DNA of 38,608 nucleotides from an uncultured Gammaproteobacteria bacterium (GTDB lineage: Bacteria; Pseudomonadota; Gammaproteobacteria; GCA-002705445; GCA-002716945), in assembly GCA_913048065.1 (NCBI GenBank), contig CAJWVG010000007.1, positions 1 through 38,608 of the forward strand. The letters run 5' to 3'. Made by a program: the position numbers and the translations under genes. Below are positions 22,373 to 38,608 of this stretch, piece after piece. The notes under the pieces were generated by a model. It saw only the letters and a program-made list of their open reading frames with translations. It ran no database searches and was not told the DNA's origin. Every line of letters starts with the position of its first letter. Position 1 is the first letter of the stretch.

Positions 22373-24169
<1,797 letters not shown>

Positions 24170-24175
24170 AACTAA

Positions 24176-25471
24176 TTATTTTTTCTTTTTAGCTTTACCA
24201 AAAACGCCTTCTAATGCTTGATCAATATCATTTATGATATCGTCGGAATTTTCAATACCAATAGATAGTCTCACTAAATCTTCAGGAACTCCTGCTTGTT
24301 CAAGTTCTTTTGGTGACAGCTGTCTATGAGTTGTAGATGCTGGATGACATGCTAACGATTTTGCATCTCCAATGTTTACTAGTCGGACAATTAAATCTAA
24401 ATTATCTATAAACTTAGCACCATTCTTTTTGCCGCCTTTAATGCCAAAGCTCAAAACACTGGAAGCTTTGCCGCCCATTAGTTCTTTAACAAGTTTGTAG
24501 TCAGGACTACTCGCTATTCCTGGATAATTTACCCAACTTACGTTAGGGTTTTTCATTAAGTAATTTGCAACTTTTACAGCATTTTCGCAATGTCTATCCA
24601 TTCTAACAGCTAAGCTTTCAATACCCTGAAGTATAAGGAAGCTATTAAATGGCGAGATAGCTGCTCCCATATTCCTCAATGGCACAACTCTAGCTGCACC
24701 AATAAAAGCTGCATCACCCATCGCCTCTGTATAAACCACGCCATGATAAGAAGGATCGGGTGTATTTAACCTAGCAAACCTTTTTTTGTGTTTGGCCCAT
24801 GGAAATTTGCCAGAATCTACAATGATTCCACCAATTGTTGTTCCATGTCCACCCATATATTTTGTTAAGGAATGAACAACGATATCAGCGCCATGTTCAA
24901 TAGGTCTGAATAAATATGGAGAAGGTACGGTATTATCCACAATAAGTGGGATACCGTGCTTATGAGCCAGCTCTGCCATTTTTGGCACATCCACTACATT
25001 CGCTGCAGGGTTACCAATAGATTCACAAAAAATAGCTTTCGTTTTTGAGTCGATTAGTTTAGCCATATCATCAATTTTATTGTGCTCTCCAAATTTAACT
25101 TCAACTCCAAATCGAGGCAATTGATGTGCGAATAATGTATAAGTGCCTCCATATAATGTCCCGGTACTAACTATATTGTCTCCAGCTTCACAAATAGTCA
25201 TAATTGCATATGTCGTTGCAGCTGAACCTGATGCTAATGCTAAAGCGCCTATACCACCTTCCATTGCTGCAACTCTTTTTTCTAATACATCAGATGTTGG
25301 GTTCATTATTCTTGTATAAATATTTCCTGCCTCTTTTAAGTCAAATAAATCAGCTCCATGTTGAGTATCTCTAAAAGAGTACGAAGCAGTTTGATATATA
25401 GGCACGGCCACAGAGTTTGTGGTAGTTTCTGGAGAATATCCCCCATGAATTGCAATTGTTTCGAATTTCAT
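24176..25471 (-). CDS. metY: O-acetylhomoserine sulfhydrylase
   Basis: MetY makes homocysteine from O-acetylhomoserine and sulfide (direct sulfhydrylation) using PLP. The 431-residue Cys/Met-metabolism enzyme has the start MKFETIAIHGGYSPE, YTRIMNPTSDVLEKRVAAMEGG, LVDNT-like PLIVDNTVPSPYL, and SLTKYMGGHG with the PLP lysine 204. The ATG at 25469-25471 follows a very strong GGGGGA site and fits the family start; ten upstream codons to 25501 are not conserved. A minus-strand TATACT (25528-25533) may be its -10. The C-terminus is Lys-rich (KAKKKK). Confidence 0.94.
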   Translation of the reverse strand: MKFETIAIHGGYSPETTTNSVAVPIYQTASYSFRDTQHGADLFDLKEAGNIYTRIMNPTSDVLEKRVAAMEGGIGALALASGSAATTYAIMTICEAGDNIVSTGTLYGGTYTLFAHQLPRFGVEVKFGEHNKIDDMAKLIDSKTKAIFCESIGNPAANVVDVPKMAELAHKHGIPLIVDNTVPSPYLFRPIEHGADIVVHSLTKYMGGHGTTIGGIIVDSGKFPWAKHKKRFARLNTPDPSYHGVVYTEAMGDAAFIGAARVVPLRNMGAAISPFNSFLILQGIESLAVRMDRHCENAVKVANYLMKNPNVSWVNYPGIASSPDYKLVKELMGGKASSVLSFGIKGGKKNGAKFIDNLDLIVRLVNIGDAKSLACHPASTTHRQLSPKELEQAGVPEDLVRLSIGIENSDDIINDIDQALEGVFGKAKKKK

Positions 25472-25535
25472 TTTATCCCCCGAAATTTGGTATCCATCCA
25501 TAATAAGAAAAAATTGTGAATATTACTAGTATAAT

Positions 25536-26624
25536 TTAAGAGATATCCAGATTTAACTGACTTTGTTCATTATTATTAAACTGTACACCTACACCTAAAA
25601 GTCTGATAGGTTTATTATTTGGACTGTAACTTTTTTTTAAGAGATTTAAAAAAATATCAAGGTCCATATTTTCTGTAGATATTTGAGAGCTTATAGATTT
25701 AAAATCACTAAACTTAATTTTTAGGAAACAAGTTTTAATAGTTCTATTTTTATATTTTTCTTTACTAAGCCTGATTGATAATTCTTTAAATAAAAATTTT
25801 AATTCTTCATTACATTGCTCAAGATTTCTTAAATCTACACTATATGTGTCTTCAACACTTAAGCTTTTACTAACTCTATTGCTGTCAACTTCTCTATTAT
25901 CTATACCCCTACATAATGAATATATTGTTATCCCAAATTTCCCTAAGATTTTTGAGAGCTCTTCTATGCTTAGCTTCTGAAGATCTTTGCATGTATTTAC
26001 TTTATGAGATTTCAACAATTCTTCAGTTTTTTTGCCAACCCCATGTATTTTTCTAATGGGTATGTTTAAAATAAAGCTCTTTATCTTATCATCTGGTATA
26101 CAAAACTGCCCGTTTGGTTTATTCCAATCACTTGCTATTTTAGATAATAATTTATTTGAAGAAATTCCTGCAGATGCTGTAATACCCAAATCGTCAAAAA
26201 TCTTTTGTCTAATTTGTTTTGCCATTACTTCAGGATCACCATTACAATATTCTGATTGAGTAACATCTAAATATGCTTCATCCAGAGAGACAGGCTCAAT
26301 AATTTTTGTATAACACCTATAAATTTTGTGTATCTCTTTTGAAACCTGCCGATATTTTTCCATATTCACAGGAAGAAAAATAATATTAGGGCAAAGTTTT
26401 TTTGCCTTTACTGATGGCATTGCTGATCTTACTCCATATTCTCTAGCGATATAATTACATGTTGTAATCACCCCTCTATCTTCTGAACTACCAGCCACTG
26501 CAACAGGTTTTGTCCTGAGTTCTGGCCTATCTTTGATTTCAACAGATGCATAAAAACAATCCATGTCTACATGAATTATTTTTATTCCTCTATATTTCTC
26601 ATTAACTGGAGCTTGTACTCTCAT
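25536..26624 (-). CDS. dinB: DNA polymerase IV
   Basis: DinB is a Y-family translesion polymerase that copies past damaged bases with low fidelity. The 362 residues have the metal-binding Asp20 in IIHVDMDCFYASVE, the steric-gate region, PVSLDEAYLDVT with catalytic Asp115 and Glu116, helix-hairpin-helix repeats (HGVGKKTEELL, LGKFG), and a little-finger domain ending in VRLLGVGVQ-like PIRLLGVGVQF. No β-clamp motif is certain at the C-terminus. The ATG at 26622-26624 lies inside ibaG (23-base overlap), suggesting coupled translation rather than an independent SOS promoter. I see no LexA box nearby. Confidence 0.94.
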   Translation of the reverse strand: MRVQAPVNEKYRGIKIIHVDMDCFYASVEIKDRPELRTKPVAVAGSSEDRGVITTCNYIAREYGVRSAMPSVKAKKLCPNIIFLPVNMEKYRQVSKEIHKIYRCYTKIIEPVSLDEAYLDVTQSEYCNGDPEVMAKQIRQKIFDDLGITASAGISSNKLLSKIASDWNKPNGQFCIPDDKIKSFILNIPIRKIHGVGKKTEELLKSHKVNTCKDLQKLSIEELSKILGKFGITIYSLCRGIDNREVDSNRVSKSLSVEDTYSVDLRNLEQCNEELKFLFKELSIRLSKEKYKNRTIKTCFLKIKFSDFKSISSQISTENMDLDIFLNLLKKSYSPNNKPIRLLGVGVQFNNNEQSQLNLDIS

Positions 26625-26838
26625 CAATAGTCAATGACTTAATAGTGAGTGCGTGAATTTCACCAGATTTTATGTATTTATCAAGTGCAGCATAAACAAT
26701 CTTGTGCCTATCAATGATAGACTTTCCTACAAATATATCACTTATAACATGTACTGTGTATTTGGAATCTCCGCCATCTACAACAACATTAGAATCAACT
26801 ATCTTCTCTGACAGTATTTTTTTTATTATATCTTCCAT
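26602..26838 (-). CDS. ibaG: BolA family protein, IbaG-like
   Basis: BolA/IbaG proteins bind monothiol glutaredoxins and [2Fe-2S] clusters and are linked to iron-sulfur handling and acid stress. The 78-residue protein has the family core VVVDGGDSKYTVHVISDIF, GKSIIDRHKIVYAALDKYI and GEIHALTIKS. The ATG at 26836-26838 is chosen because GGAGAA lies six bases before it and it starts 2 bases after the previous stop; an ATG at 26853 would overlap the upstream gene. The tail ends in serines overlapping dinB. Confidence 0.88.
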   Translation of the reverse strand: MEDIIKKILSEKIVDSNVVVDGGDSKYTVHVISDIFVGKSIIDRHKIVYAALDKYIKSGEIHALTIKSLTIDESTSSS

Positions 26839-26840
26839 GT

Positions 26841-27323
26841 TTATTTCTCCCATAGTTCTGGATTAGCCCAGTTATCACTGTTAAGCCAATCTGGCGATTT
26901 CTTATAACTACTTATATTATAAATATAAAAGACAAAAAAGATATTATTCTGCTGTATTTGTCTGCGAGCTTGGAATCCTAATGACATTACTGTTTTATGA
27001 AGTTTGCTATCTAAGTAATTCTCATTCAGCACCCTATTTGAAATCAAAATGTTATTTGGAAAGGTCAAAATAAGCTTACCGATAGTTTGATATAAATCTT
27101 CATGGCGCATAATGCAATCTGTAATTGATATAATCAAGAAATTATCATCATCAAAACTAATATCAATATCCTGGATATTTTCGTAATTTTTAAATTTAAT
27201 CCCTTTTTCAGTCAAAATATTATATATAAAGCCATTGATATTTTCACAAAGGATTAATCTTTTATAATTTGTATTTTCCAATACATCGAGCAATATACTT
27301 TTATAATTATTTATTTTCTCCAT
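26841..27323 (-). CDS. Uncharacterised 160-residue protein
   Basis: I do not assign a function. It has no signal peptide or membrane segment. The first half alternates hydrophobic strands and helices (RLILCENINGF, NFLIISITDCIM, LTFPNNILISNRV), resembling a Rossmann-like fold without a glycine-rich SAM loop. The C-terminus SPDWLNSDNWANPELWEK is Trp/Asn-rich. From memory it resembles tails of a small uncharacterised gammaproteobacterial family (possibly DUF6231), which needs a search. It overlaps rsmJ by 17 bases and is followed 2 bases later by ibaG, so it is translated in the long hemA-dinB operon. Confidence 0.75.
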   Translation of the reverse strand: MEKINNYKSILLDVLENTNYKRLILCENINGFIYNILTEKGIKFKNYENIQDIDISFDDDNFLIISITDCIMRHEDLYQTIGKLILTFPNNILISNRVLNENYLDSKLHKTVMSLGFQARRQIQQNNIFFVFYIYNISSYKKSPDWLNSDNWANPELWEK

Positions 27324-28020
27324 TATAAATATTATAGTTTATTAATTTCGTTTTGATATTAAAATTAGCATTAATTATGTTACTTGATGAATGTTTTGGC
27401 TCCTTTACTATTACCCTTTTTTTGGATTTTTTTATTGCAAGTTTTATTAATCTATTTTTATTTTTTTCCGATAATGAAATTATCTTTAATATTTCATCAT
27501 TCTTGGATGACAAAGATTTGTCTTTAGTTTTATCAAACATAAAATCTATATAGATATAATCATATTCTTTTTCACTATGATTTAAAAAATCATAGGAATC
27601 ACCATAATAGAGAGTTAGATTATGATCCTTTAATATATTTAGTGCATTTTTTAATATTAATATTATTAGCGGGCTTTTTTCAATCATTGTTACTTTATAA
27701 CCTAGTAAATCAAGTATTCTAGCATCTCTTCCAAATCCTGCCGTACAATCCAAAATTTCTGACCCTTTGTCTGGAAATATTTTATTAAATATATCATTAT
27801 TATCTCTCATACGTATTTTAAGTCTATCGTTCACTTTTTTATCTAAAAAACTGATATTGACAAAAGCTGGTTTTTTATAATTTGTATTGAGAATATGAAT
27901 ATTGCTTTCCTCAAATTTTAGCAATATATTTTCATTGAATATTTTAGGGCATATATCTTTTAACTTATTTTCTATAAATAAAGATTTATCTTTATTTATA
28001 ATATCAGATACTATCTTCAT
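27307..28020 (-). CDS. rsmJ: 16S rRNA (guanine-1516-N2)-methyltransferase
   Basis: RsmJ methylates G1516 of 16S rRNA. The 237-residue protein has ILDCTAGFGRDARILDLLGYKVTMIE (SAM motif I, TAGFGRDA 93-100) and the family's C-terminal SKKRVIVKEPKH (KRVVVKRP in E. coli). The motif IV, DPMFP in E. coli, reads DFMFD here (159-163), losing the proline. The N-terminal region is poorly conserved and Lys/Asn-rich. Its ATG overlaps the mreD stop by one base (TAATG). Assignment is good at family level; activity is less sure. Confidence 0.85.
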   Translation of the reverse strand: MKIVSDIINKDKSLFIENKLKDICPKIFNENILLKFEESNIHILNTNYKKPAFVNISFLDKKVNDRLKIRMRDNNDIFNKIFPDKGSEILDCTAGFGRDARILDLLGYKVTMIEKSPLIILILKNALNILKDHNLTLYYGDSYDFLNHSEKEYDYIYIDFMFDKTKDKSLSSKNDEILKIISLSEKNKNRLIKLAIKKSKKRVIVKEPKHSSSNIINANFNIKTKLINYNIYNGENK

Positions 28021-28487
28021 TATTTAATATTATATCTTCTTCTAATTGACCTAAGACTAAAAAATATTATTGGCCAAATTATTGCACTAACTAGTGGTAT
28101 CCAATATACAGATAAACCATAATTACCGATAGTAAGTAACTTATCAATCCATAATAGAATTGTATATTTGAATATTAATAAAAAAAGAACTATGATTCCT
28201 TGTTGAAATACAGTTAAATATCTTATTGTTTTATATGTTTTTAAAATAATATAAGAAATTAAAACATATACTAGAGCATTGGCACCTAGAGTAGACCCAA
28301 CCACTACATCCGCTGTTAAGCCGATTATCCAGGATACAACTAACCCCACAGATTTTGGTGCCGCTAGAATCCAGTATATTAGGAATAAATGTATCCAGTC
28401 TGGAGAAAATGAACCTAATGGAAATGTTGATATCGTGAGGGCAATAGATATAAAAAATGATATCAATATTACCAGAAAACTATTCAT
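28020..28487 (-). CDS. mreD: Rod shape-determining protein MreD
   Basis: MreD is an inner-membrane partner of MreB, MreC and the elongation synthases. The 155-residue protein is almost wholly hydrophobic, with about five membrane segments. The family stretch PDWIHLFLIYWILA is followed by GLTADVVVGSTLGANALVYV. It ends in a basic tail (LRSIRRRYNIK). Its ATG overlaps the end of mreC by 8 bases and its stop overlaps the rsmJ start. Confidence 0.93.
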   Translation of the reverse strand: MNSFLVILISFFISIALTISTFPLGSFSPDWIHLFLIYWILAAPKSVGLVVSWIIGLTADVVVGSTLGANALVYVLISYIILKTYKTIRYLTVFQQGIIVLFLLIFKYTILLWIDKLLTIGNYGLSVYWIPLVSAIIWPIIFFSLRSIRRRYNIK

Positions 28488-29334
28488 TAATTTTTTCCTT
28501 CTCTTGCTGAGGTTTATAATCCCAAATTAAAATCAGCTCAGACATGTTTCCTATATTTTCAAATGGTTCTATATCAATTTCACTGAATCTTCTATCCGGA
28601 TTATTATATACTTTACTTATCTTTCCTATAGGAATTTTAGATTTGAACCGTCCTGCAATACCAGATGTAGAAATTATATCTCCAGGTTTAATATCAATAC
28701 CCACTTTTGCATAATTAATTGATAGTTTTTGTGAATCTTCGGAACCATTTATTAAAACTTTCTCACCAGTCCGATTTATTTGCCCTGGAGTTGTATGGGT
28801 AGGCTCAGATATTAGTATGACTTTTGAAGACAGGAAGTTAGTCTCAATTATTTGACCTACTAATCCATTTACACCTATAACATTTTGACCCACAAAAATA
28901 CCATGCTTTTGACCTTTATCTATAGCCAATATTCTTTTATTAGGACTTGCGGCATTATTTATAACCTTAACAATAGTTTGCTTTTTAGACATAGTTAATG
29001 ATTGTTTGGTAATCTTTCTTAATCTAGTATTTTCATCCTTAAGAGATGCTAGCTCTTGTAGCTTAATTTTTAGATTCATATTTTCTTTTTTTAATAATGC
29101 TATTGTATTTTCTAACTCATCCAGATTACTAGATTCTCGTATTGCATCATTTAGCAGGGATTTTGGCATAGATGATAATTGATCAATAGGATAAACTATA
29201 AGATCGGTGATGATTGATCGTATATATGTTATTTGGTTATATTTATAATCTAATGTAATTGTCAAAATTGACAGTAGTAGTAAGAAAACAAGAGTATAAA
29301 AATCAGCAGTACTTTTTTTATAAAAGCGTTCCAT
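28480..29334 (-). CDS. mreC: Rod shape-determining protein MreC
   Basis: MreC is a bitopic periplasmic scaffold that activates the elongasome. The 284 residues show one N-terminal membrane anchor (about 12-30), a coiled coil at about 70-103 with alternating Leu/Lys/Glu, and a β-rich C-terminal domain with NAASPNKRILAIDKGQKHGI, VGQIIETN, TTPGQINRTGE and GDIISTSGIAGRFKSKIPIG. It starts 2 bases after mreB. Length is slightly below the E. coli protein (367), lacking its long C-terminal extension. Confidence 0.95.
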   Translation of the reverse strand: MERFYKKSTADFYTLVFLLLLSILTITLDYKYNQITYIRSIITDLIVYPIDQLSSMPKSLLNDAIRESSNLDELENTIALLKKENMNLKIKLQELASLKDENTRLRKITKQSLTMSKKQTIVKVINNAASPNKRILAIDKGQKHGIFVGQNVIGVNGLVGQIIETNFLSSKVILISEPTHTTPGQINRTGEKVLINGSEDSQKLSINYAKVGIDIKPGDIISTSGIAGRFKSKIPIGKISKVYNNPDRRFSEIDIEPFENIGNMSELILIWDYKPQQEKEKINE

Positions 29335-29336
29335 TT

Positions 29337-31819
<2,483 letters not shown>

Positions 31820-31821
31820 AA

Positions 31822-33276
31822 CTATTCCCTCGTGATATTTGGTTGCATCGTATGCCAATCTGTTAATTGTTGAAAATGATTAGCGAGAGATAAAATCTTC
31901 GATTCATCAAAATGGTTGCCAATTATTTGGAGTCCGAGAGGTAGTTTATTTTTAAAACCCATCGGTATTGACATTGCGGGTAGGCCAGCAAGGTTTGTAC
32001 TCACTGTAAAAACATCAGATAGATACATCGCAATCGGATCATTGGTTTTTTCACCTAACTTAAAAGCACAGTCCGGTGCTGTTGGTCCTAAAATCAAATC
32101 AACATCTTTAAATGCTGCGGCAAATTCACTTGATATAATCTGTCTTATTTTTTGTGCTTTTAAGTAATATGCATCATAGTATCCAGCAGATAAAGCATAT
32201 GTCCCAATTAAAATTCTTCTTTTTACCTCTGCTCCAAAACCATGTGAACGTGATTTTTTATATAATTCCTCAATATCTTTAACTCCATCAGCTCTATAAC
32301 CAAACCTCACTCCATCAAACCTTGATAAGTTCGACGAACACTCCGCTGGCGCTACTACTTGATAAGCCGAAACTCCTAACTTGGAACTTTTCAAATTTAT
32401 AGGTTTAAATGAGCAACCATTTTTTTCTAAAATTTTAATATTTTCTTCAAAAACATTTTTAACATTATCATCTAAGCCATCTAAAAATTCTGATGGTATG
32501 CCAATTTTCAAACCCGTAAATTTTTGTTTTATATCTTTCACATAGTTAGGCACATTTTTTCTTGACGACGTTGAATCTTTAGGATCATAACCCGAGATAT
32601 AGCTCAACATTAAGGCACAATCTTCGGCGGTTCTTGTAAAAATTCCAGCTTGATCTAGGCTAGATGCGAACGCAATCATGCCATATCTTGATACCCTTCC
32701 ATACGTTGGTTTAATCCCACATATTCCAGTTAGAGAAGCTGGTTGTCTTATTGATCCCCCTGTATCTGTGCCTGTAGAACATGGTGATAGTCTTGCAGCA
32801 ACACAAGCAGCTGAACCACCCGAAGAACCTCCTGGAACATAATCAGTATTCCATGGGTTTTTAACATCCCCAAAATAGCTTGTTTCATTAGAAGAACCCA
32901 TGGCAAATTCATCCATATTAGTTTTTCCAATTATTATCATCCCAGCCTCATTGAGTTTTTCCACTACTGTTGCATCATATGGGCTAATAAAATTTTCTAA
33001 CATTTTAGAACCACAAGTAGTTTTTATGTTTTTGGTACAAAATATGTCTTTTTGAGCAAGAGGAATTCCGCCCAAAGGCCTAAATTCACCCTTTGATATT
33101 TCCTGGTCAATTTTTTTTGCCTGATTTAGCGCATGTTCTTCTGTTAATGTAATAAATGAATTTAGTTTGCAATCATACTTCTTAACCCGATCAATAAAAT
33201 GTTGAGTTAGCTCTAAAGAACTTACTTCTTTCTTCTCTAAATCATTTTTTAATTCTGAAACTGTTTTATTATGCAT
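31822..33276 (-). CDS. gatA: Aspartyl/glutamyl-tRNA amidotransferase subunit A
   Basis: GatA is the amidase that releases ammonia from glutamine for GatB. The 484 residues have the amidase triad: Lys76 in LAQKDIFC, cis-Ser151 in [10 protein letters not shown], and nucleophile Ser175 in [11 protein letters not shown], offset by three from the Staphylococcus numbering. The ATG at 33274-33276 lies 1 base after gatC; a TTG three codons upstream would overlap gatC and is less likely. Full length, no damage seen. The GatCAB presence implies that at least one of Gln-tRNA or Asn-tRNA is made indirectly. Confidence 0.97.
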
Positions 33277-33277
33277 A

Positions 33278-33559
33278 TTAATCAATTATTTTTGGTACTT
33301 TATAGTAACCATTATCGGTGTATTTATTATCCTTCTGAAATAAATCTCTATTATTTATCTCTAATACCTTATCTTTTCTTAATTCCTGTTTGAGATTTAG
33401 TGGATGAGCCATTGGTTTGACATTATCCGTATTGATAGAGTTCATTTCATCAACTAAGTTTAATATCTTTTCTAAACTCGAGACAATATCATTTATCTGA
33501 TCTTGTTTTATTTCAATTTTAGCCAAGTCAGCTATTTTAATAATTGTATCTTTGTCCAT
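33278..33559 (-). CDS. gatC: Aspartyl/glutamyl-tRNA amidotransferase subunit C
   Basis: GatC is the small stabilising subunit wrapped around GatA and GatB. The 93 residues follow the family pattern: [38 protein letters not shown], and the C-terminal VPKIID. It is 1 base from both prmC upstream and gatA downstream, completing a gatC-gatA-gatB set. Confidence 0.95.
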
Positions 33560-33560
33560 T

Positions 33561-34418
33561 TTATGAATTTTTTGAAAGTGTAAATCTTTTTATATTATTA
33601 TAATCTAATATAACATCTATGTCTTTAAAATAGTTTGTTTCCAAAATCTTCCTAACAGCTGAGTTTTGGTCAAAACCATTTTCCAATATTAGTAAGCCAT
33701 TTGTTTTAAGGGTTTTTCTTGATTCAGTTATTATTCTTTTTATATCATAAAGGCCTTTGTCTTTTGAATATAATGCACGCTCGGGCTCATATTTTTTTAC
33801 ACTCTCCTGAATGTATGGAGACCCCTTTTCTATATATGGTGGGTTAGAGATGATTATATCTGCAATATTTTCATTAAATGCAGTTAGCCAATCGCACATA
33901 ATCAATTCACAATTTTTATAGTTGTTGCTTATATAATTCTTATTTAGTATTTCAAATGCCTCTTGATATTTTTCTGTTAAAATAATATTCCAGTTTTTCC
34001 TCTCTGCCGCAATCGACAATCCTATGCACCCAGAACCAGATCCTACATCTATGATTGTTGTATTACCATATTTTTTGTAAATTTTATCTCCAGCTTTGAT
34101 AGCTTTTGATATTATTATTTCTGTATCCTGTCTTGGTATTAATACATTATCATTTACAAAAAATTTATTATTATAAAACTCTTGATAACCAAGTACATAT
34201 GCAAGAGGCATACCTTTTTTAAGATTATCTATTAATTTAAAAAACTTTAGTTCCTCTTCGCTATTTAAATGAATATCATGCATATGAATATATGATCTAT
34301 CCTTTTTAATAGCCTCCATTAAACAATATTCGATATCAGATTTGGTAATGGATAAATTACCACTGGAATTAATATCTTCAAATGTTTTTGAAAGAATATT
34401 AGTAATAGTAAATGTCAT
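33561..34418 (-). CDS. prmC: Release factor glutamine methyltransferase
   Basis: PrmC (HemK) methylates the glutamine of the GGQ motif in release factors RF1 and RF2. The 285 residues show an N-terminal helical domain, the VLIPRQDTE motif (92-100), SAM motif I VGSGSGCIGLSIA (from 125) and the NPPY glutamine-binding motif at 192-195. It starts 2 bases after its substrate gene prfA, the classical hemA-prfA-prmC order. Confidence 0.96.
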   Translation of the reverse strand: MTFTITNILSKTFEDINSSGNLSITKSDIEYCLMEAIKKDRSYIHMHDIHLNSEEELKFFKLIDNLKKGMPLAYVLGYQEFYNNKFFVNDNVLIPRQDTEIIISKAIKAGDKIYKKYGNTTIIDVGSGSGCIGLSIAAERKNWNIILTEKYQEAFEILNKNYISNNYKNCELIMCDWLTAFNENIADIIISNPPYIEKGSPYIQESVKKYEPERALYSKDKGLYDIKRIITESRKTLKTNGLLILENGFDQNSAVRKILETNYFKDIDVILDYNNIKRFTLSKNS

Positions 34419-34420
34419 GT

Positions 34421-35533
34421 TCAGCCTGCCGATGCTTTTTTAAGTTCGTTAATTAATTGTTCTATGTCACCTTCTAATATTTGTTCTAATTTATATAGTG
34501 TTAAATTTATCCTATGATCGGTAATTCTTCCTTGAGGAAAATTATATGTTCTAATTCGTTCGGATCTATCACCACTGCCTATTAGACTTTTTCTTTCTTC
34601 TGCCGTGTCTTTTTTTTGTTGTTCTTGTTCATGCAACAAAAGTTTTGAGTGAAGTATTGACATTGCTTGGGCCTTGTTTTTATGTTGTGAACGCCCATCC
34701 TGACATTCTGAAACAGTGCCAGTTGGTAAATGCGTAATTCTTACTGCAGAATCTGTTTTATTAACATGTTGGCCTCCAGCCCCTGAAGCCCGATAAGTAT
34801 CAATTCTTAAATCAGCTGGGTTAATATCAACCTGATCAATTTCTTCTATTGCAGGTAATACCGCGACTGTTGAAGCCGACGTATGAATGCGACCTTGTGT
34901 TTCAGTATCAGGTACCCTTTGAACTCTATGAGTTCCAGATTCGAATTTAAGTTGTCCATAAATATCATCTCCTATAACTTTTAATATTATCTCTTTGTAA
35001 CCACCATGGTCGCTTTCAGTTACATTAATGAGCTCTATATTCCAAGAATTCTTCTCTGCATATTTTGAATACATCTTATAAAGATCTCCAGCGAAGATAG
35101 CAGCTTCATCGCCACCTGTGCCGGCGCGTATTTCTAAAAATACATTTTTAGAATCATTCGGATCTTTCTCAACTAAAAACTCTAATAATAGATTCTGCAA
35201 TTGTGTCTTTTTTTCTAGATATTCTTTAGACTCATCTTCGGCCAATATCTTTAACTCTTTATCTTTCTCATTGGAGATTAAATCTTCAATATCTATGATT
35301 TTTTTAAGTAATTCTTTATAATCTAAAAAAAGTTTATATGGTTTTTCTAGCTGTGACCTTTCTTTATTTAATTTTTCAGATAATTTTCGGTCTTTGTAAG
35401 TTTCTGGGTCTTCTAGTTTTTGAGTTATTTCAGCATAACGTATTATTATATTATCTAATCTGTCTATTAGTTTAGGGTTTGTGATAAATTCAAAAGCTAA
35501 GCTTTTTGGATCATTTGAAGATTTTTCATTCAT
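34421..35533 (-). CDS. prfA: Peptide chain release factor 1
   Basis: RF1 reads UAA and UAG stops and triggers peptide release. The 370 residues carry the GGQ motif in [16 protein letters not shown] (253-255) and [22 protein letters not shown]. The stop-codon tripeptide, PAT in E. coli, is PDT here (208-210), within the PxT pattern. The N-terminus is longer than in E. coli by roughly 15 residues, but the ATG overlaps the hemA stop (ATGA), which supports this start. Confidence 0.97.
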
Positions 35534-36777
35534 TCTTTCTTTTTAAAGATATTTTGCACCTTTAATGCAGTTGGTTTATCGATAAGAGGTAGAATTTCTT
35601 TTAGCTTTGCTGTTGTTTCATGTGTAAGTTTATTTTTCAACGATTCTGAAAGGAAAGATATTACCATATCGATATCTTCACCCGCTTCAAGCATTTTCTT
35701 AGACTTTATTACCACTCCATCTGTAATATCATCAATATATCCTCGATATGATTTTATTAGATTATCCGAGTGATTCTGATCCAGCCAAACCCTGAACTCA
35801 TTAATTTTATAATCTATTATTTTTTCTGCTTCCACTAAAGCCTGTTTTCTTATTTTGAAATTATTTTCTATGACTTTACCTAAATCGTCTATGCTATATA
35901 AATATACATTATCTAAAGTGGTGATTTCAGGTTCTACATCACGAGGAACACCTAAATCAATTATAACCATCGGCTTAGAATTATTATTAGTTATTGAGCT
36001 CTCCATCATTCCTTTTCCTATGATTGGTATTGTGCTTGATGTACAAGTTATTATTATGTCATTCATAGATATTAAATTTGGAAGATATTGTAATTTAGAA
36101 TAATTACACTCATTATCCTTGGCAATTTTTTTACCTTTTTCTGTATTCCTATTGGCTAGAGTGATATCTCTAACATTATTTGACTGCAAATATTTAATAG
36201 CCAATTGAATCATATGACCGGACCCTACAACTAATGCCCTTTTTAAGGATATATCATCAAAGATTTTTTTTATCAGAGTTATTGATGTAAACATGAAGGA
36301 TACAGGATTTGAACCAATATCCGTATTTGTTCTAACTTGTTTTGCTACAGAAAATGAAAATTCAAATAGTCTTTTTAGCGAGGATTTTATACATTGGTTC
36401 TGATTTGCAATTCTAAAAGCATCTTTCACTTGACCTAATATTTCATTTTCACCAACAACCATTGAGTCAACGCCGGAGGTTACACTAAATAAATGTTTTA
36501 TTGCTTCATCATTATAGTAACTATAAGTATAAGGGCCACAATCCTTGGTTTGATTTTGATTACTATTGAGCCAATGAAGGATTTTGCTATTATCAGAATT
36601 GTTCTCAGTATAAATTTCTGTCCGATTACAGGTAGATATGAGTACTACTTCGTTCACGCCATCAATTTTTTTTAGATCTGATAAAGCTTTAGGGATAGAA
36701 TTTTTATCAAAAGCAAGCTTCTCTCTAATATCAATAGGGGCAGACTTATGATTAACTCCCAGTACATTTATTGGCAT
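35530..36777 (-). CDS. hemA: Glutamyl-tRNA reductase
   Basis: HemA reduces Glu-tRNA to glutamate 1-semialdehyde, opening the C5 haem pathway. The 415 residues have the catalytic Cys50 in [30 protein letters not shown], an NADPH-binding [12 protein letters not shown]-like segment, and [14 protein letters not shown], plus the C-terminal dimerisation helix. It is the first gene of the long minus-strand operon. TGGAGAGA lies just before the ATG, and a minus-strand TATAAT (36829-36834) about 52 bases upstream is a possible -10. Confidence 0.97.
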
Positions 36778-36828
36778 AATTCTCTCCAGATAGACTATAC
36801 ATTCTCCAAATATATAGATATCTGCTAT

Positions 36829-36834
36829 ATTATA
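36829..36834 (-). promoter_or_regulatory. Possible -10 for the hemA-dinB operon
   Basis: A perfect TATAAT on the minus strand sits 52 bases before the hemA ATG, in the 62-base spacer (36778-36839) shared with the divergent TPR gene. The -35 position (ACTCAA at 17 bases) lies inside the TPR gene and is poor, so confidence is limited. The spacer's AT-rich sequence also has TATATT and TATACT on the plus strand. Confidence 0.4.
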
Positions 36835-36839
36835 CTATT

Positions 36840-38534
36840 ATGCGTATTTATTTGAGTGTTTTGCTAATAATAATCCCATTTTTTATAGGATCTTGTTCTA
36901 AGCAACAAGAGGACGATTCCAATTCGTATAATTTGAATATGTCAGTTGGCGATAGAAGCTCATATCTTTATCAATCTATATACATAAACTTTGCCCTAAC
37001 AAGATCTTTAGAGGATGAGGCTCTATCAATGTTTATAGAAAATATTGATAATATGACAGATCAAAAACTATTTGAGAAAATATCCAAAATCTCTCTTGAA
37101 ACTTATCAATATGACAAGAGTGAAATTATTGCCAACAGATGGCTTCAAATTTACCCTAAATCATATAACGCATATCAATTTAGCATAAGTTCATCGCTCG
37201 AGAATAATAATTTATTAAAAGCAGAAAAATATTTTATTGAGTATTTAAAAATAATTAAGCCAATTGATAAGAATGATTATTCAAAATTAATTTTTTCATT
37301 TTTAGATAATAAAAATAGGTTAAATGTAGTCAACTTTTTTGAAAATTATTTAACTAAGAATGATAATCGAGCATTAAACTTAAATTTTATTGAACTATTG
37401 TATTCTTACAATATGCCATCAAAAGTAATAAAGCATATTGATAAATTGGGAACTTTCGGTGAAAGAAACTTAGTCAGACTCTATGCAAGCTCGCATATGC
37501 TACTTAAGAGTTATAATAAGTCCCAAAATATTTTAGAATCTTATTTGAAAGGAAAAAAAGCGTCTGATAGACAAGTACAGTTTGAATTATTAGAAATATA
37601 TATTTTAAATAATCAAAAAGAATATCGAGATAAACTGATTCAAAAGATATTAGATAGTGATCCTGATAATCTAGATACGATTTATCAAATATCTAGGATT
37701 CTTTTTGAAAGCTCTATGTTTGATTTATCAGAAAAATATTTATCATCGATTGTAGTAGAGAGTGACGAGGTTAATCTTCTTAGAGGCATGATTGATTATG
37801 AGCGAGGTAGTTATATTGAGGCAATTGATCATTTCGATAGAATAACAAATTATAATTATAAGATTCTTGCTATAATTAACAAATCATCCGCTATGAGTAA
37901 ACTTGAAAGTGTATCCAAGGCCATAGATTATTTAGAAAACCTTAAAAAAAATTATAATGATTCTTCAGTTAGGCAAAGATTTGCTCTTAAACAAATCTCA
38001 TTGTTGAATGAAAAAAAATTATATAAAGATATTATTACTTTAACTAATAAAATATTAGATAATAATAATGATAATATTAATATCTTATATGCTAGAGCCA
38101 TGGCATATGAATCACTCGATAATATAAATTTAATGGAAAAAGATTTAAAACAGGTTTTAAAATATGACCGCAAAAATGCTAATACCCTGAACGCCCTTGG
38201 TTATAGTCTCACAATACACACTGAAAGATATGAGGAGGCTTATAACTTTATTCATCAAGCGTATCATTATGATCCCGGTAGTCCAGCTATTTTAGATAGT
38301 CTTGCTTGGATATTATATAAAAAAGGAGAATTTACTCATGCATTAATATATGCTGAATCATCATATATTAAAGATCAAGACCCAGAAATTGTTGAACATT
38401 ACTGTATTATACTGATGGAAAATAAATTATATGAAAAATTAAAAGAAGTCATAAAAAAAGAATCAGTCAGGAATTCTAATAATGAAAATTTCATCAAAAA
38501 ATTACACTCCATCAAAGATGAAATACCATTATAA
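36840..38534 (+). CDS. Tetratricopeptide-repeat lipoprotein
   Basis: The 564-residue protein has a lipoprotein signal with lipobox IGSC (Cys19), then a long helical repeat region. Clear TPR units appear towards the end (NTLNALGYSLTIHTERYEEA, ILDSLAWILYKKGEFTHALI); earlier repeats are degenerate and rich in Asn, Lys and Tyr. TPRs serve as protein-docking scaffolds; the partner here is unknown. It matches the TPR gene found between hemA and lolB-ispE in Pseudomonas-type genomes. No ribosome binding site precedes the ATG. It overlaps ispE by 17 bases. Confidence 0.88.
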   Translation: MRIYLSVLLIIIPFFIGSCSKQQEDDSNSYNLNMSVGDRSSYLYQSIYINFALTRSLEDEALSMFIENIDNMTDQKLFEKISKISLETYQYDKSEIIANRWLQIYPKSYNAYQFSISSSLENNNLLKAEKYFIEYLKIIKPIDKNDYSKLIFSFLDNKNRLNVVNFFENYLTKNDNRALNLNFIELLYSYNMPSKVIKHIDKLGTFGERNLVRLYASSHMLLKSYNKSQNILESYLKGKKASDRQVQFELLEIYILNNQKEYRDKLIQKILDSDPDNLDTIYQISRILFESSMFDLSEKYLSSIVVESDEVNLLRGMIDYERGSYIEAIDHFDRITNYNYKILAIINKSSAMSKLESVSKAIDYLENLKKNYNDSSVRQRFALKQISLLNEKKLYKDIITLTNKILDNNNDNINILYARAMAYESLDNINLMEKDLKQVLKYDRKNANTLNALGYSLTIHTERYEEAYNFIHQAYHYDPGSPAILDSLAWILYKKGEFTHALIYAESSYIKDQDPEIVEHYCIILMENKLYEKLKEVIKKESVRNSNNENFIKKLHSIKDEIPL

Positions 38535-38608
38535 GTCACCTGCAAAAATTAACCTTTTCCTAAATATAATTAAAAAAAGAAAAGATGGATTTCATGACAT
38601 TCAAAGCA
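38518..38608 (+). CDS. ispE: 4-diphosphocytidyl-2-C-methyl-D-erythritol kinase, N-terminal fragment
   Basis: IspE is a GHMP kinase of the MEP isoprenoid pathway. Only 30 codons are in the window, but MKYHYKSPAKINLFLNIIKK and DGFHDIQS match the E. coli start (SPAKLNLFL, RADGYHTLQT). The ATG at 38518 gives the E. coli-like spacing of six residues before SPAKIN; an in-frame ATG at 38482 would add twelve. It begins inside the end of the TPR gene, in a different frame, so translation is likely coupled. The rest lies beyond the window. Confidence 0.88.
   Translation, partial: MKYHYKSPAKINLFLNIIKKRKDGFHDIQS

Follow-up and report, generated by a model that had tools for sequence, protein, structure and literature searches.

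DUF6231 of Gammaproteobacteria, a putative methyltransferase-like pseudoenzyme with a nearly constant Trp-rich tail

Class-I S-adenosylmethionine (SAM) methyltransferases have, by definition, a sheet of seven strands. Members of this class are the closest structural relatives of the predicted body of DUF6231: the model of a Thioalkalivibrio homologue (L118) is superimposed on MfnG (7ux6), HEN1 (5wy0) and CysG (9fcx) with Z scores of 12.7, 12.5 and 11.8, respectively. Unlike these enzymes, DUF6231 lacks the canonical motif I, shows six strands in its models and carries an extra conserved tail. A second comparison is provided by nematode PMT-2, the N-terminal half of which is regarded as the vestige of a methyltransferase domain. 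This half (4ine, residues 3-173) is the top VIA row for the model of the DUF6231 protein studied here, rows within one Z unit being tied. It belongs to a two-domain enzyme, in contrast to DUF6231, and we know of no DUF6231-type tail on nematode PMT-2.

No function of DUF6231 is described in the open-licence literature, where the name DUF6231 occurs in no paper and which also yielded nothing usable on a dead-methyltransferase precedent, on a link with IbaG or rsmJ, on the vestigial PMT domain or on a Trp-rich tail. The Pfam entry, PF19742, appears in one paper, in a figure legend that compares a Staphylococcus aureus protein with several Pfam groups; it is the S. aureus protein whose fold is called hydrolase-like or transferase-like there. 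The locus in PA7 has the order DUF6231, ychJ, a small ORF and an ORF that we take to be yicG-like. By its match to this gene order, PA1040 of Pseudomonas aeruginosa is DUF6231: Table 2 of PMC3922391 gives an operon of PA1040, PA1039 (ychJ), PA1038 and PA1037 (yicG). According to the same paper, PA1037-PA1040 correspond to one growth-impairing antisense insert, the effect being that of four genes and not of PA1040 alone. Another apparent source on PA1040, PMC8497521, was set aside, as the match proved to be to the name of a strain tag. The gene described below belongs to the same family as PA1040 (by gene order) but has other neighbours.

The gene lies in a window of 38,608 nucleotides, the whole stretch of DNA analysed (Table 1). 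The preliminary description had placed a 160-residue protein there, overlapping rsmJ by 17 bases within a hemA-dinB run, and all of this was borne out. The frame opens with ATG (CDS 27323..26841, minus strand), and frame 1 of the plus strand is interrupted by stops across it. The order on one strand is hemA, prfA, prmC, gatC, gatA, gatB, mreB, mreC, mreD, rsmJ, DUF6231, ibaG, dinB, with small gaps or overlaps between the genes; mreD, rsmJ, ibaG and dinB were assigned by domain scan and the other eight names are presumptive, given from the look of the sequences. The proposed 2-base gap to ibaG holds if the ATG of ibaG is at 26838, and becomes a 13-base overlap if ibaG is read from 26853. Two terminator-like sites were found in 25000-38608 (5.1 expected), one of them on the minus strand within gatA.

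Table 1. Positions of the DUF6231 gene, its parts and its nearest neighbours in the window
Feature	Position	Strand	Basis
DUF6231 (PF19742) gene, 160 aa + stop	26841..27323	minus	ORF + Pfam
Body, residues 1-139: predicted degenerate class-I methyltransferase (Rossmann-like) fold without cofactor motif	26907..27323	minus	predicted model + motif I
C-terminal tail, residues 140-160, near-invariant YK..PDWLN...WANPELWEK	26844..26906	minus	alignments, tail pattern
rsmJ-like gene for a 16S rRNA methyltransferase; lies upstream and overlaps by 17 bases (context only)	27307..28020	minus	Pfam SAM_MT, 110 bits
ibaG-like BolA gene, downstream (context only)	26602..26838	minus	Pfam BolA, 50.9 bits
dinB, closing the gene run (context only)	25536..26627	minus	Pfam IMS, 190 bits

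Two further observations concern the surroundings of the gene. RsmJ of the window (27307-28020) scores 55 bits against an NCBIfam equivalog cut-off of 422 and is thus very divergent. At 22376-25501, a gene and its converging neighbour, which we take to be thiC-like and sulfhydrylase-like, are separated by 6 bases.

A homologue of the DUF6231 ORF is present in 22 of the 25 genomes of the window's family, its own genome counted (best E 2e-37 besides the self-match), and none of the listed matches has an internal stop, which argues that this is not a chance ORF. The Pfam match to DUF6231 (62.9 bits, cut-off 35) aligns residues 75-160 with positions 63-142 of the 145 of the profile. By sequence, the window protein is a divergent member of this known, uncharacterised family, its tail being built on the same plan and its body far diverged. 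The match is to DUF6231 and not to a family of known function, and the protein is as uncharacterised as had been proposed. Comparison by hhalign of the window body with the family body gave a modest match in the second half of the body, residues 64-141 (P 4.7e-5, probability 68%).

Among 370 Gammaproteobacteria genomes, requested at 90% completeness and with the window's own genome (82.6%) included, DUF6231 is carried by 68, in one copy each; none of 14 control genomes has it. The window protein itself was matched in 25 of 57 genomes searched, including the 22 of its own family. A profile of the body only, run on 114 genomes, gave 17 matches, all in carriers with the tail or a tail variant; it did not recover the window protein, and the carrier G080 was not among the matches listed. 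The PDB, searched by sequence, contained no match to the window protein or to one tail alone, and three DUF6231 members had no match in NCBIfam. Viral contigs yielded no homologue. A role in phages or in anti-phage defence was dropped, as three members searched against PHROGs and PADLOC matched nothing at E<=1. Five long open frames ending in DUF6231 carry no further Pfam domain; they were rejected as gene fusions, since the stretches ahead of the true starts are probably open only by read-through of GC-rich DNA.

The AlphaFold2 model of L118, made with an alignment of 38, has a pLDDT of 91.6, and that of the window protein, likewise built with an alignment of homologues, a mean of 81.2. Helices and strands follow nearly the same order in both models, each of which has six strands of at least three residues. 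Foldseek against the PDB gave best E values of 3.3e-6 (L118) and 1.1e-4 (window); the 50 matches listed are SAM-methyltransferase-type proteins by title, apart from a few with other titles (TamK, the RdmB chimeras, WbdD, ApiI and FinI) that are presumably of this type too. VIA-align scores were Z 12.7, rmsd 2.6 and 139 aligned residues for L118, and Z 11.2, rmsd 3.4 and 138 aligned residues for the window protein. A class-I methyltransferase (Rossmann-like) fold of the body is well supported by these models, in line with the Rossmann-like domain without a SAM loop suggested earlier. At the sequence level there is a faint echo of Methyltransf_12: with E<=1 as the threshold it matches 14 of the 38 members, the best at 5e-4. 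The hits of a PDB profile search, a response regulator at E 0.0062 and SAM-methyltransferase chains at E 0.18 or worse, were not used as evidence.

The canonical motif I, hh[DE]xGxGxG, occurs in none of the 38 and none of the 29 aligned DUF6231 members. Loss of SAM binding is likely because this cofactor motif is missing. An acidic residue at the end of strand 2 (L118 columns 47-52) is present in at most 10/38 and 6/29 rows, and a D or E just after it (column 53) in 11/38 and 16/29. Outside the window's family, 25/38 and 16/29 rows keep the first G of motif I, and 28/38 and 20/29 have an E following strand 4. Since this G and E persist in many rows outside the window's family, ligand binding may be retained there. 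These two residues, the acidic residue at column 53, the fold match and the Methyltransf_12 echo could also be read as signs of a SAM-dependent methyltransferase that is active through a cofactor site of an unusual kind. Such an enzyme is improbable, given that no aligned member has a canonical motif I and that the first G is absent from all 20 members of the window's family, in which the cofactor site has decayed furthest.

The Trp/Asn-rich C-terminus PDWLNSDNWANPE, pointed out in the preliminary description, is real and turns out to be the signature of the family. Its core, W-L-N-x3-W-A-N/H-P, lies within the last ~22 residues; in the window, the more general pattern defined in this work, W-[LN]-[NS]-x3-W-[AS]-[NHT]-P, is found at 26860-26888. 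Mean pairwise identity is 67% in the tail vs 21% in the body in alignment A1 (29 rows) and 68% vs 27% in A2 (38 rows), the tail values being inflated at the filter sites because tail residues guided both the choice of ORFs and the retrieval of 80 named loci; the Pfam model includes the tail as well. Nevertheless, Y146, K147, P150 and K166 (L118 numbering) are constant though they were outside the ORF filter. The exact DNA pattern of the tail core is found once per genome in 59 of the 370 genomes, all of them DUF6231 carriers, and the reversed pattern, used as a control, in none of the 370. The other 9 of the 68 carriers have tail variants such as WLS, WSN, WAT or WNN. A scan of genome contigs with the tail core returned at least 598 stretches, of which at least 595 were confirmed relatives, a confirmation that may itself rest on the tail. 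A second tail subtype, with YN.KR.WNN...WANPE.F instead of YK.TPDWLN, was observed at L094:7900-8385 (-) and L206:2384-2929 (-).

Body and tail have evolved largely apart. For this comparison, 75 non-redundant members at <80% identity, taken from 118, were set against 20 members of the window's family. R89 (L118 numbering throughout) is present in 73/75 outsiders vs 3/20 family members, W113 in 65/75 vs 0/20 and the first G of motif I in 51/75 vs 0/20; D65 is found in 7/20 family members. In the tail, Y146, K147, P150, W152, L153, N154, W158, A159, N160, P161 and K166 are present in 20/20, as is G122 of the body, and the last three tail residues are absent in the window's family. Judged from these alignments, most of the body residues that are conserved elsewhere have disappeared from this family, and the tail has stayed.

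Substitution rates follow the same division. In a Pseudomonas-rich set, dN/dS is 0.13 for the body and 0.019 for the tail (44 sequences; 351/946 pairs, dS 0.1-1); the respective values are 0.60 and 0.12 in the window genus (21/21 pairs, with dS near saturation), 0.49 and 0.055 in genus g5 (21/28 pairs) and 0.43 and 0.17 in genus g6 (3/6 pairs). The quotient of body and tail dN/dS is thus 5-9 in three sets and 2.5 in the remaining one. Homologues and purifying selection are both present, selection being clearest in Pseudomonas. A decaying remnant was dropped as an explanation given this purifying selection, an argument that is weak for the window genus with its body value of 0.60 and near-saturated dS.

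One way to account for a constant tail is intramolecular: its Trp residues could occupy the cleft left empty by the cofactor or hold the small domain in place, and its constancy would then reflect folding. The tail core is always attached to a DUF6231 domain in the 370 genomes, all matches to the body-only profile bear the tail or a variant, and G122 of the body is retained alongside the tail in all 20 family members. In the models, moreover, tail pLDDT is about 66-67 for the window protein and 66-81 by blocks of ten in both models, not below 50; at such intermediate values the tail is not clearly disordered and may pack on the body. However, most of the conserved body residues have changed in the window's family while the tail has not, and the several-fold higher dN/dS of the body points the same way, which makes a purely intramolecular tail rather unlikely.

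The neighbouring genes had been taken as a clue to function, and here the proposal found no support. In all 21 family loci examined (of 22 family genomes with the gene, G023 with its short contig being left out), the order is mreD, rsmJ, DUF6231, ibaG, dinB. In 40 loci outside the family, rsmJ is found within 1 kb upstream in none vs 21/21 family loci (within 5 kb in 2/40), ibaG within 1.5 kb downstream in 6/40 vs 21/21 and dinB downstream in 1/40 vs 21/21. The context of these 40 loci is mixed, with mreD in 7/40 and, upstream in 6/40, a gene with exonuclease and HRDC domains, presumably rnd (RNase D); a fixed partner among the neighbours was dropped as an explanation. In 80 named loci, mostly from Pseudomonas and partly overlapping with the 40, ychJ is downstream in 52/80 and ibaG is near in 1/80. 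The order in L118, mreBCD, rnd, DUF6231, ibaG, dinB, suggests an old arrangement that would have been broken later.

Two relatives have lost the gene; the fragmented genome G019 was excluded from these counts. In G007 (completeness 100%, contamination 5%), rsmJ and ibaG overlap directly, and in G009 (completeness 82%) the two genes are about 80 bases apart. Both genomes retain mreBCD, rsmJ, ibaG and dinB, and no DUF6231 homologue was found genome-wide in either. By this sequence evidence the gene is dispensable in these two relatives, and its retention in compact genomes is thus not universal.

A non-catalytic partner of the rRNA methyltransferase RsmJ would explain why the gene adjoins rsmJ in every family locus. 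The presence of rsmJ (PF04445, E<=0.001) in 55/68 carriers vs 171/302 non-carriers would also fit (Fisher P 1.8e-4, uncorrected for kinship). Nevertheless, 13 of the 68 carriers have no PF04445 match at this threshold, rsmJ is not within 1 kb in any of the 40 outside loci, and G007 and G009 keep rsmJ without DUF6231; such a partnership is very improbable. A role in assisting IbaG with iron-sulfur handling, for which the downstream ibaG of the 21 family and 6 outside loci could speak, is most improbable, since the same two genomes keep ibaG without DUF6231 and the Pseudomonas-rich named set has ychJ and hardly ever ibaG beside the gene. As two relatives lost the gene and 13/68 carriers have no rsmJ, DUF6231 is not an obligate partner of rsmJ or ibaG. 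Of the preliminary interpretation, then, the uncharacterised Rossmann-like protein without a SAM loop and with a distinctive tail is supported; the role linked to rRNA modification or iron-sulfur handling by its neighbours is not.

Other genes were noted beside DUF6231. An uncharacterised protein of ~294 aa with a P-loop-like GE[ST]GRRKT is encoded between DUF6231 and ibaG at L058:4976-5866 (-) and L090:5267-6148 (-) and was also matched in L118 and L130; the L058 copy has no Pfam match and weak NCBIfam echoes only. A gene for a 492-aa AAA ATPase lies divergently beside DUF6231 at L118:5386-6864 (-), the copy that was scanned, and at L058:6488-7966 (+).

DUF6231 probably works by binding another molecule and not by catalysis, because the cofactor motif is lost and the Trp-rich end almost unchanged. 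We give an even chance to the explanation that it is a pseudoenzyme resembling methyltransferases and that it acts by way of a tail docked on a conserved partner. A trimmed class-I methyltransferase fold would have lost its SAM site, as the missing motif suggests, and the body would have become a fast-evolving scaffold for the C-terminal peptide YKxTPDWLNxxxWANPExW. Docking on a conserved partner, protein or RNA, would be what keeps the tail nearly constant. Family membership, the constraint on the tail, the exclusiveness of its core pattern to the family in 370 genomes, purifying selection and dispensability are drawn from sequence, and the fold is drawn from predicted models.

Tentatively, DUF6231 may be an adaptor that is widespread in Gammaproteobacteria and occurs even in 1-Mb genomes, a dead methyltransferase of which the invariant Trp-rich peptide is a new docking motif for one conserved machine. 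A dead methyltransferase with a docking tail is a testable hypothesis, and a peptide of 20-odd residues that differs little between Pseudomonas and a 1-Mb genome can serve as bait. Should the partner turn out to be a core machine, the tail would represent a new bacterial docking motif.
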